IMG/VR virus record: IMGVR_UViG_3300023278_000924
Span: 1 to 24,855 of that record
Direction: 5' to 3' (one strand)
Source of the DNA: a virus
Length of the DNA stretch: 24,855 nt
In this document: piece after piece, positions 20,151 through 22,373 of the stretch
Position numbering within the stretch: position 1 is the stretch's first letter
Layout: each line of letters begins with the position of its first letter
Notes under the pieces: generated by a model
Database searches by the model: none
Seen by the model: the letters and a program-made list of their open reading frames with translations, nothing else
Told to the model about the DNA's origin: nothing
Position numbers and translations under genes: made by a program

Positions 20151-21425
20151 TCACGCCGTGAACGGGTCATAATCCATGACCGCCTGCTTCTGGGGTGGCC
20201 TCGACCGATCCCCCGTTTCCCTAATCCCAACCGCCAAGTACCGAAACGCATCGGCAGCGTGGCTGGTCCAGTCATGAACAGGCGACGCGCGGAAAGACCG
20301 CGTGCGCTCGTTGTAAGCGCGATGATACTGCCTTAACGCCTCCAAGCCAACCTTTGTCTTCTCCCGGTCAAACCAAAGCCTCGGTATCAACATTTGTGCC
20401 GCATGTATCCCGTCCTCAACAGGCAGCTTTGGCACAATCCGGAAGTTCAAACCCAAATCCCAAGCAACCTCCCGCCGGCTCTTCCCGCTGCCCAGCTCCC
20501 GAACCTGGATGTCGTGCGGCGCGTAATGATCCCCGTACAAATAACGACGCTCCGACAAAACCTTGCAGTAATGGGGCAAGCCCTCATTGCGGGCCTCGTA
20601 ATAATCAATCACATGGATCGCACGCCCAACCGTCTGCGTAAACCAAATTGCCGTGCTGTCGCCAACACCAAGATCCCAAAACGTATCCACTCGGTGCGCA
20701 GGGTCATACGGCACGTTGCAAACCCTGCCAGCATCTTGGGCATCCTCCAAATCCTTGCCGTAAATCGCGCCAGGCACATTCGCGTTCCACGAACACTCAA
20801 ACTCCTGCTGGTACTGGTCATGCGACATCGTCTGACGCGCAGCAGCCAATTCCTCATCATCCAAAATCCCAGTCTGACCAGCCTTGTAAACCGCACAAAG
20901 CCAATCATCATTCCCACTCGCCTCCTCGTACAAATCAAAAAACGCATTGTGACCCTTTGGGGTGCCGACAAACACAGCCCACCCCTTCCGATCCGACAGC
21001 GCAGGGCGGATGACTTCGGGGAAAACATTCTCTGGCATCTGCGCAACCTCGTCCATCACGCAGCCGTCCAAGTAAATCCCGCGCAAACTGTCAGGGTTCT
21101 CAGCTCCCAACAAACTAATCCGCGCACCAGTCGGCAAATCACACCGCAATTCCGTTTCGTGGAACTTGGCGCCAGGTATCCCGCCAGCAAATTGCTTTAG
21201 GTAATCCCAAGCCACGTTCTTCGCCTGACGATAGGTGGGCGCCATGTAGGCATACCGGGGGTTCGTCTTCCCGCACATAATCGCGTCACGCAAAATGTGA
21301 TTGATCGCCCACACAGTCTTGCCAAAGCGCCGGTGGCACACAACCACCCCCCACCGCTTGGCCTGCATCTCGGCATGCAGCGTCAGCTGCAACGGTCGCG
21401 GCGCGTAAGGTATAACAATTTCCAT
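20151..21425 (-). CDS. terL: Terminase large subunit (packaging ATPase/nuclease)
   Basis: This 424-aa motor protein pumps DNA into the procapsid and cuts it. A Walker A-like CHRRFGKT lies near residue 30, with a hydrophobic strand and acidic DE (GCVMDEVAQM) as Walker B near 122. VGTPKGHN near 153 looks like motif III. The RNase H-like nuclease is visible as DTFWDLGVGDSTA (first Asp near 251), APHD (about 305) and HDWTSHAADAFRYL near the C-terminus. The ATG at 21425 forms TGATG with the preceding stop; a TTG one codon earlier is less likely. The length is slightly short but complete. Confidence 0.95.
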   Translation of the reverse strand: MEIVIPYAPRPLQLTLHAEMQAKRWGVVVCHRRFGKTVWAINHILRDAIMCGKTNPRYAYMAPTYRQAKNVAWDYLKQFAGGIPGAKFHETELRCDLPTGARISLLGAENPDSLRGIYLDGCVMDEVAQMPENVFPEVIRPALSDRKGWAVFVGTPKGHNAFFDLYEEASGNDDWLCAVYKAGQTGILDDEELAAARQTMSHDQYQQEFECSWNANVPGAIYGKDLEDAQDAGRVCNVPYDPAHRVDTFWDLGVGDSTAIWFTQTVGRAIHVIDYYEARNEGLPHYCKVLSERRYLYGDHYAPHDIQVRELGSGKSRREVAWDLGLNFRIVPKLPVEDGIHAAQMLIPRLWFDREKTKVGLEALRQYHRAYNERTRSFRASPVHDWTSHAADAFRYLAVGIRETGDRSRPPQKQAVMDYDPFTA

Positions 21426-21619
21426 CAATGCACCTGCTCTGTTTTTTCGAACTCGATGATGCCGAACTGCTGCAAGATCTCTTCGTACAGGTCAAGCAGC
21501 AGCATCGTCAGCTCGACCAGCTCAACGTACTCGTAGTCGTCCGGATTATCCATCATGTCGGCTAGGTCGTCCTGCATGGCTTGGATGTGGGCTATTATGG
21601 CTGGGTGGAGTTCTGGCAT
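21425..21619 (-). CDS. Very acidic 64-aa hypothetical protein before terL
   Basis: The protein begins MPELHPAIIAHIQAMQDDLA. It has 16 Asp/Glu and a single Lys in 64 residues and is probably helical throughout. I chose the ATG at 21619, with GAGG 8 nt upstream. The open frame runs on to 21937, but the extra part crosses the non-coding dif-like region and looks random. It is the first gene of the late operon and overlaps terL by 1 nt. Acidic helical proteins can mimic DNA or bind packaging factors. No family is recognised. Confidence 0.72.
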   Translation of the reverse strand: MPELHPAIIAHIQAMQDDLADMMDNPDDYEYVELVELTMLLLDLYEEILQQFGIIEFEKTEQVH

Positions 21620-21730
21620 TGCGGCAGCCTCGCAGAGAGAGTGTGTACTTTCAGCACCCGTCATATCGCTATAGGAAGTGGCGGGCGGTTTGGGGGAGGG
21701 TGGGGGTCGGCGTCTCGGAAAACGGGTCGA

Positions 21731-21758
21731 AAGGCGCATAATACGCATTATGTTAAGT
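21731..21758 (+). other. dif: dif-like XerC/XerD recombination site
   Basis: The 28-bp site has a left arm AAGGCGCATAA, a 6-bp centre TACGCA and a right arm TTATGTTAAGT. Compared from memory with the E. coli dif arms (GGTGCGCATAA and TTATGTTAAAT), the XerC-side arm matches at 8 of 11 and the XerD-side arm at 10 of 11, in the same order and with the standard 6-bp spacing. XerC/XerD are host tyrosine recombinases that resolve chromosome dimers; some phages and plasmids use them for integration or multimer resolution. That it lies in a long non-coding gap supports function. Use by this phage is inferred. Confidence 0.75.
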
Positions 21759-21778
21759 AGCGGTTTCAATGTTATCAA
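21750..21778 (-). promoter_or_regulatory. Candidate sigma70-type promoter for late operon
   Basis: On the minus strand, TTGATA (21773-21778) is followed after 17 nt by TAACAT (21750-21755), matching the -35 hexamer at 5 of 6 and the -10 at 4 of 6. It points toward the 64-aa gene and terL, about 130 nt downstream. The -10 overlaps the XerD-side arm of the dif-like site, so recombinase binding and transcription could interfere. Prediction by eye only. Confidence 0.4.
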
Positions 21779-21816
21779 TGACTTAGCATTTTGGCCCCCA
21801 GAAACCGGACCCAAAA

Positions 21817-21830
21817 CACAACATGTTGTG
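21817..21830. promoter_or_regulatory. 14-bp perfect palindrome (possible operator or part of terminator)
   Basis: CACAACATGTTGTG is a perfect palindrome located downstream of the small terminase gene. On the minus strand it is followed by TTTT, so it could be a weak intrinsic terminator for the early block, together with the nearby GC-rich inverted repeat. A perfect palindrome could equally be a binding site for a dimeric regulator acting on the late promoter about 40 nt away. Confidence 0.5.
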
Positions 21831-21914: not shown

Positions 21915-22373
21915 TTATTGCTTATCGACCGAGGCAACGTCGCCGCTGGCCCAGCTGATGGTTATGGCTGACTGCTGCTGCGGTGCGTCCTCTTTCTTGT
22001 CTCTGATGCCGTATGGCTGTGTGCGTGCCAGCGTCCACTTGAGGCTTTCGACTTCGAGCTTTCTGCGCTGGATCTCTGCGCCGAGCCATCGGCTGTCGCA
22101 CGGTGATCCGTCTGGATGCTGTGTTGGCAGTGGATCGCTGGCCAATGTGTTGATGCGGTCTGCGTAGTACTCTGCCTGCCTCACCCGTCCATCGCGGTAG
22201 ATCTCATGGAGTTCTGGATCTCGGATGACTGCCTTGGTGATTGCGTAGTATGCCGGCATGCCTTTGTCTTCGACGATGCGCAGCAGGCTTTCGCCTTGCG
22301 CAAGTCTTTCGGCGATTGATGTCATGAGTGCTTTTGTGACTCTGACGTACTTTTGTTTAGGCTGGTCTGTCAT
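21915..22373 (-). CDS. terS: Terminase small subunit (Sf6-type)
   Basis: The 152-aa protein likely recognises phage DNA and delivers it to the large terminase. It has an N-terminal helix-turn-helix-like part (ALMTSIAERLAQGESLLRIV then EDKGMPAYYAITKAVIRDPE). A central RQAEYYADRINTLAS follows, then RKLEVESLKWTLARTQPYG. This order (repeated-use S-L-R-I with GMP, A-D-x-I, then W-x-L-A-x...P..YG-like) is typical of Sf6-like small terminases. AGGAGA lies about 7 nt before the ATG. It closes the early block, not directly joined to terL as is usual, because 295 nt and a small gene intervene. Confidence 0.87.
   Translation of the reverse strand: MTDQPKQKYVRVTKALMTSIAERLAQGESLLRIVEDKGMPAYYAITKAVIRDPELHEIYRDGRVRQAEYYADRINTLASDPLPTQHPDGSPCDSRWLGAEIQRRKLEVESLKWTLARTQPYGIRDKKEDAPQQQSAITISWASGDVASVDKQ

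Follow-up and report, generated by a model that had tools for sequence, protein, structure and literature searches.

A candidate dif-type site for host XerC/XerD in the packaging region of a podovirus, with counterparts in other tailed phages

The chromosomal dif site of Escherichia coli and other Proteobacteria is a 28-mer recombined by XerC and XerD, and in E. coli this reaction normally needs FtsK. The site consists of two 11-bp arms separated by a 6-bp centre, in E. coli GGTGCGCATAA-TGTATA-TTATGTTAAAT, and the XerD arm is more conserved than the XerC arm among chromosomal sites (Carnoy & Roten 2009). The phage site described here has the same length, arms and spacing, and its XerD arm is likewise the more conserved. 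It differs from chromosomal dif in lying beside terminase genes or in terminal repeats, with no chromosome terminus context, and in having a variable centre other than TGTATA and an accessory IHF-type motif.

Three further systems invite comparison. The lox site of phage P1, recombined by Cre, lies near the packaging start and has been proposed to act in the circularisation of terminally redundant DNA and in dimer resolution. Both the position and the proposed role resemble those of the phage dif site, but P1 encodes its recombinase, whereas the site described here has arms of the type bound by host enzymes and the Phage_integrase domain (PF00589) was detected in none of 39 dif-bearing records, many of them fragments. 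In integrative mobile elements that exploit Xer (CTXphi, VGJphi, TLCphi and GGI; filamentous and tailless phages) a dif-like site and host XerCD replace an integrase, as we propose here; however, those elements recombine with chromosomal dif and are found integrated, while no integrated copies of the phage dif described here were found and its centre departs from the one common in hosts. The plasmid sites cer and psi are XerCD sites on their own replicon that adjoin DNA for accessory proteins (ArgR/PepA or ArcA/PepA), of which ArgR is one at cer. The phage site, with its 6-bp centre and IHF-type motif on virion DNA, differs from cer, whose centre spans 8 bp and whose recombination depends on accessory proteins, PepA among them (PMC5357621).

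The window, by which we mean the whole stretch of DNA that was analysed, is a 24,855-base linear IMG/VR contig of a podovirus and represents a fragment of its genome. It encodes a T7-type portal (phrog_332), tail tubular proteins A and B, and the large and small terminase subunits TerL and TerS. A BLAST search of the whole window against phages gave no match, and the nearest cultured relatives, judged by TerL, are the HTVC010P-type pelagiphages. The features of the packaging region are as follows.

20151-21428, minus strand: terminase large subunit gene terL (phrog_2), product 55-57% identical to that of most HTVC010P-type pelagiphages
about 21425-21620, minus strand: open reading frame of about 65 amino acids preceding terL
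21692-21706, plus strand: G-tract GGGGGAGGGTGGGGG (a C-tract on the TerL strand), candidate packaging or terminus signal
21731-21741, plus strand: XerC-type arm AAGGCGCATAA, 8/11 against E. coli dif
21742-21747, plus strand: private 6-bp centre TACGCA, differing from the TAGGCA of a relative with 99% TerL identity (L002)
21748-21758, plus strand: XerD-type arm TTATGTTAAGT, 10/11 against E. coli dif
21771-21787, minus strand: accessory motif GCTAAGTCATTGATAAC, beginning 12 nt past the XerD arm and recurring beside dif in other lineages
21773-21785, plus strand: perfect match to the IHF consensus WATCAANNNNTTR, present as TATCAATGACTTA, inside the accessory motif
21817-21830: palindrome CACAACATGTTGTG, which by inspection of the gaps has a comparable position in several lineages
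21915-22373, minus strand: terminase small subunit gene terS (phrog_1482), E 1.3e-20

Judged by its sequence, the 28-mer at 21731-21758 is a real XerC/XerD-type site. It has two 11-bp arms with inner CATAA / TTATG symmetry and 6-bp spacing, and the arm matches claimed by the first-pass annotation were exact. The same annotation had placed the site in a gap before the late operon; the non-coding gap lies instead within the packaging genes, with terS on one side and the open reading frame that precedes terL on the other. Over a 17-position core the site has one mismatch, while just 6 of 100 shuffles came as close as three mismatches, and the analytic expectation for a site with at most one mismatch in the window is about 1.5e-4. 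Only the shortness of the motif speaks for a chance resemblance to dif. Against it stand the shuffles, the fixed place upstream of TerL and the information content of the arms, and the conservation of the site across the phage family refutes it, so that we give chance practically no weight.

This conservation was examined in 176 loci obtained from three TerL searches of viral contigs, in which some contigs are counted twice. About 155 of the 176 carry a dif-like 28-mer, nearly all of them 145-340 bp upstream of TerL, and family members with enough upstream sequence nearly all have one in the same place. Under a strict match, 13 of 14 family or dif-bearing records examined held exactly one site and the fourteenth held none. 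In one member with a long branch in the TerL tree (L304) the site lies about 870 bp upstream of TerL. No convincing dif was found in 82 HTVC010P-type sequences, where the best score was 14 of 17. Syntenic, non-integrating relatives without the site had been named in advance as evidence against it, and this proved partly true: HTVC010P-type phages do lack dif, but the closest dif-lacking relatives have a tyrosine recombinase.

To see how far the site extends among other viruses, we scanned viral contigs for GCGCATAA-N6-TTATGTTAA and obtained at least 120 matches. Among the matches listed we examined 50 mostly environmental records, of which 40 carried TerL; the canonical dif lay 0.1-2.5 kb upstream of TerL in 36 of these 40, where about 10 would be expected (naive P 1e-20, with rows that are not independent). 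The TerL proteins of the examined records, together with those of the window and of phage C72C1, form five clusters at 40% identity. Phage C72C1 also carries a dif-like site, and the literature on it held nothing relevant. Fetched stretches of MEP301, Hodr, BcepC6B, Ss1, phiM5, HTVC010P and Greip contained no convincing dif.

The arms and the centre of the site have changed at very different rates. Over 109 unique family sites the mean information per position is 1.65 bits for the XerD arm, 1.50 for the inner seven positions of the XerC arm and 0.67 for the centre, against 0.2-0.4 for the flanks. Sites were found via their arms, so the conservation of the arms is partly built in, whereas the centre played no part in the search. 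Within the centre the two middle positions hold 0.05 bits and the nearly invariant final A 1.92. There are 44 distinct centres among the 109 sites, and the centre of the window site is private, which bears out the earlier description of it as phage-specific. The common host centre TGTATA is none of the 44, although the window phage's own host may have another. Among close relatives, compared as 45 disjoint pairs, the mismatch rate was 0.227 at the centre (counted over positions 1-5), 0.097 in the flanks, 0.101 at TerL third codon positions and 0.026 in the XerD arm. The difference between centre and flank has a bootstrap confidence interval of 0.063-0.200, and the centre evolves about twice as fast as either the flanks or the TerL third codon positions.

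The arms themselves vary between clades. One clade has TTATCCGATAA...TTATGTAATAT, in the likeness of the dif of Rhodobacter sphaeroides chromosome 2, TTATCTGATAA...TTATGTAATCA (Carnoy & Roten 2009), while the arms of other clades resemble gamma- or beta-proteobacterial dif. Such clade-specific types would be expected if the sites had adapted to the XerCD of different hosts.

When two copies of a site recombine with each other their centres need to match one another and not that of the host, so a fast-changing centre points to recombination of the phage site with itself and argues against a constant partner like chromosomal dif. This bears on the reading of the site as an attP for Xer-dependent lysogeny, in which the phage, like CTXphi and VGJphi, would use host XerCD to integrate into the chromosome at dif. 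Xer-type arms without a phage integrase fit that reading, and none is detectable in the window, as first noticed, though the window is a fragment. Part of the centre of the VGJphi attP likewise departs from that of dif (PMC5357621), which we count in favour. The same holds for a near-complete relative of 33,048 bp (G002, L018), one contig end of which is the last base of its 28-bp dif, like a junction; the opposite end of the contig is about 175 bp beyond this, in the direction of TerL, and the arrangement could be a recombinant junction or an assembly break. Against lysogeny are the hypervariable centres, among which TGTATA is absent, and a scan of GTDB contigs with two peptide patterns, one genome per species, which gave no family prophage and one distant match; the hosts may be unsampled in it. 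Integration at the chromosomal dif, one of the two uses suggested by the first-pass annotation, is disfavoured by these results and by those on rV5-type phages below, and we regard it as unlikely.

A BLAST search with the dif module led to the Vequintavirinae. The virulent coliphage rV5 carries GGTGCGCATAA-TAGGTA-TTATGTTAAAT, with arms identical to those of E. coli dif at 22 of 22 positions and a centre of TAGGTA in place of TGTATA. The region is conserved in 119 records, and dif-like matches also occur in related genera. A comparison with 5,426 complete E. coli genomes gave no match to the rV5 region, which makes lysogeny at dif unlikely for rV5-type phages. As a side observation, 18 INPHARED records labelled 'Campylobacter phage' (MG065646-MG065690) match the rV5 dif region at about 92-93%; from their sequence they look like E. 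coli Vequintavirus sequences with a different host label.

In two of these phages the site can be placed relative to the ends of the virion DNA. Gotham has its dif at 170-197, within annotated identical terminal repeats of 459 bp at both genome ends. For KPP-1 a 514-bp DTR at 116316-116829 has been determined from doubled coverage and PhageTerm (PMC9862379); we predicted a dif within this published repeat and then found AGTGCGTATAA-CGTGTT-TTATGTTAAAT at 116529-116556, with a score equalled by 0 of 300 shuffles of a 2-kb stretch. Direct copies near both ends of the virion DNA, the arrangement that would make the site lox-like in the sense of P1, are present in Gotham and, by way of the read-based DTR, in KPP-1. 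The original paper on rV5 reports a circularly permuted genome, and a 2026 Vequintavirus paper inferred headful packaging for an rV5 relative; these reports are at odds with the fixed DTR of KPP-1 and Gotham and are a point against the reading favoured below. In the two dif-bearing phages checked whose ends are known the site lies within the terminal repeats, which counts further against an attP and favours a terminal or multimer function, the second use that had been suggested.

We therefore favour, with a probability of roughly 0.6, a phage-owned Xer site in the packaging or terminus region at which host XerC/XerD recombine phage DNA with phage DNA, for cyclisation or for multimer resolution. 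By analogy with phiM5 (below) and the Vequintavirinae, the site of the window phage is probably inside a direct terminal repeat of the virion DNA. Such a repeat would place one copy near each linear end in direct orientation. Host XerC and XerD are predicted to bind the XerC-type and the XerD-type arm, respectively, and strand exchange between the two terminal copies would close the incoming genome into a circle. The same reaction could turn dimers or concatemers into monomers, and either outcome may be the one that matters. The private, fast-evolving centre would direct recombination to the phage's own copies and away from host dif, and the adjoining IHF-type site may shape the synapse in a way that removes the dependence on host FtsK. 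The usual need of E. coli XerCD for FtsK at dif counts against our reading, as an FtsK-gamma domain was found in none of 13 phage records. A gene adjoining the rV5-type site (pangalan_62, MN850627 33019-33282; rV5 ORF 165), annotated in pangalan as 'DNA translocase FtsK', was considered as an FtsK-gamma activator and rejected for want of Pfam or PDB support; pangalan_62 has 87 amino acids and its FtsK annotation appears wrong.

The DNA around the site holds several further signals. An exact IHF consensus lies within 70 bp of dif at 40 of 121 family sites, compared with 0.3% of shuffles. The accessory motif, allowing up to four mismatches, occurs near 47 of 96 sites with centres other than TGTATA, 0 of 25 with TGTATA and 1 of 121 shuffles, and we take it as a candidate point of IHF action at the phage dif. 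In the Rhodobacter phages RcGingersnap (about 510 from the record start) and RcSpartan (38348-38378), TAAGTCATTGA lies in non-coding DNA with no recognisable dif; its presence there, near the genome start in RcGingersnap, suggests that the motif may act independently of dif. The palindrome ACAACATSTTGTG and the C-tract recur in several lineages at similar relative places. The G-tract includes a KOPS-like GGGGAGGG (GGGNAGGG) at 21693-21700 and is shared by relatives that lack dif. In Sinorhizobium phage phiM5, a terminal repeat annotated at 357 bp holds the C-tract and a copy of the accessory motif with three mismatches. The C-tract in dif-lacking relatives and in the phiM5 repeat indicates that this is probably a packaging or terminus region, in which the tract itself would be a putative signal. 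Contig ends near TerL, taken as a sign of physical ends, gave no clear peak. In L125, L090, L098 and L155 a DnaA-box-like TGTGGATAA lies between dif and TerL and suggests that an origin may share the region in that lineage.

The IHF-type motif, palindrome and C-tract around the site, and the DnaA-box-like element seen in one lineage, mark a type of region that serves packaging or replication, and it could be argued that a host protein, XerCD or another, binds the site without recombining it, as a decoy that titrates XerCD, as a roadblock or as part of a packaging or replication-origin structure. Binding of this kind gives no reason for a centre that outpaces its surroundings while the arms and the exact 6-bp spacing are kept, and we think it improbable.

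The orientation of the site has switched at least eight times on the TerL tree with the site retained, which we also count in favour of our main reading. Two nearly identical contigs from different samples, L058 and L060, differ by a 144-bp inversion that contains dif and the IHF-type site and lies in the zone about 120-310 bp upstream of TerL. Such events might mean that the site serves recombination between co-infecting phages, by exchange or inversion of the terminal region, with cyclisation as a secondary effect. The fast divergence of the centres would be an obstacle to exchange from one phage to another, however, and the L058 inversion could be an assembly error; of the functional readings this seems to us the most doubtful.

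Three of six dif-lacking family members (L301, L303 and L307) carry a PF00589 tyrosine recombinase, the proteins being integrase-like (phrog_1), and on the TerL tree the recombinase-bearing lineages split off close to the base of the dif-bearing family. A swap between dif and recombinase is only suggestive, as many records are fragments. If the enzyme of these relatives is a true integrase, integration stays a live rival, and its presence there is a point in favour of the attP reading. Where dif would be, the dif-lacking L301-L303 and L306-L308 have a conserved stretch of the type CGGGG...CCCGAT. We considered it as the recombinase-bearing relatives' own site; it was judged conserved by eye and its inverted repeat was not significant against shuffles, so that we set it aside as suggestive only. 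The place of dif may be a tyrosine-recombinase site in both types of lineage, with the enzyme taken from the host in one and from the phage in the other.

A broader proposal, on which we are evenly divided, is that these sites reflect a widespread and unrecognised strategy of tailed phages, in which a private, diversifying dif in the terminal repeats lets host XerCD cyclise or resolve virulent genomes while keeping them recombinationally apart from related phages and the host chromosome, and takes the place of a phage tyrosine recombinase in close lineages. No description of such a strategy was found in the open-licence literature searched. Xer hijacking is known mainly from small integrating phages and plasmids, and here its signature appears in virulent tailed phages, including more than 100 rV5-type records. 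If true, the proposal would explain the content of some large non-coding terminal repeats, would tie host chromosome-dimer resolution to the circularisation of phage genomes and would make the centre sequences a natural record of recombination-compatibility groups. For rV5-type phages the signature lends itself to tests with common xer mutants of E. coli. Finding a dif-like site on a viral contig should not be taken to prove lysogeny.

One further motif was seen in the same gap of the window. On the plus strand, opposite to that of the genes, CTATAGGAAG at 21669-21678 looks like the core of a T7-type promoter, a single match that is not above chance. A related stretch, TATAG..GATATGACGGGT as read on the TerL strand, is found again ahead of TerL in some relatives (L060 and L010).
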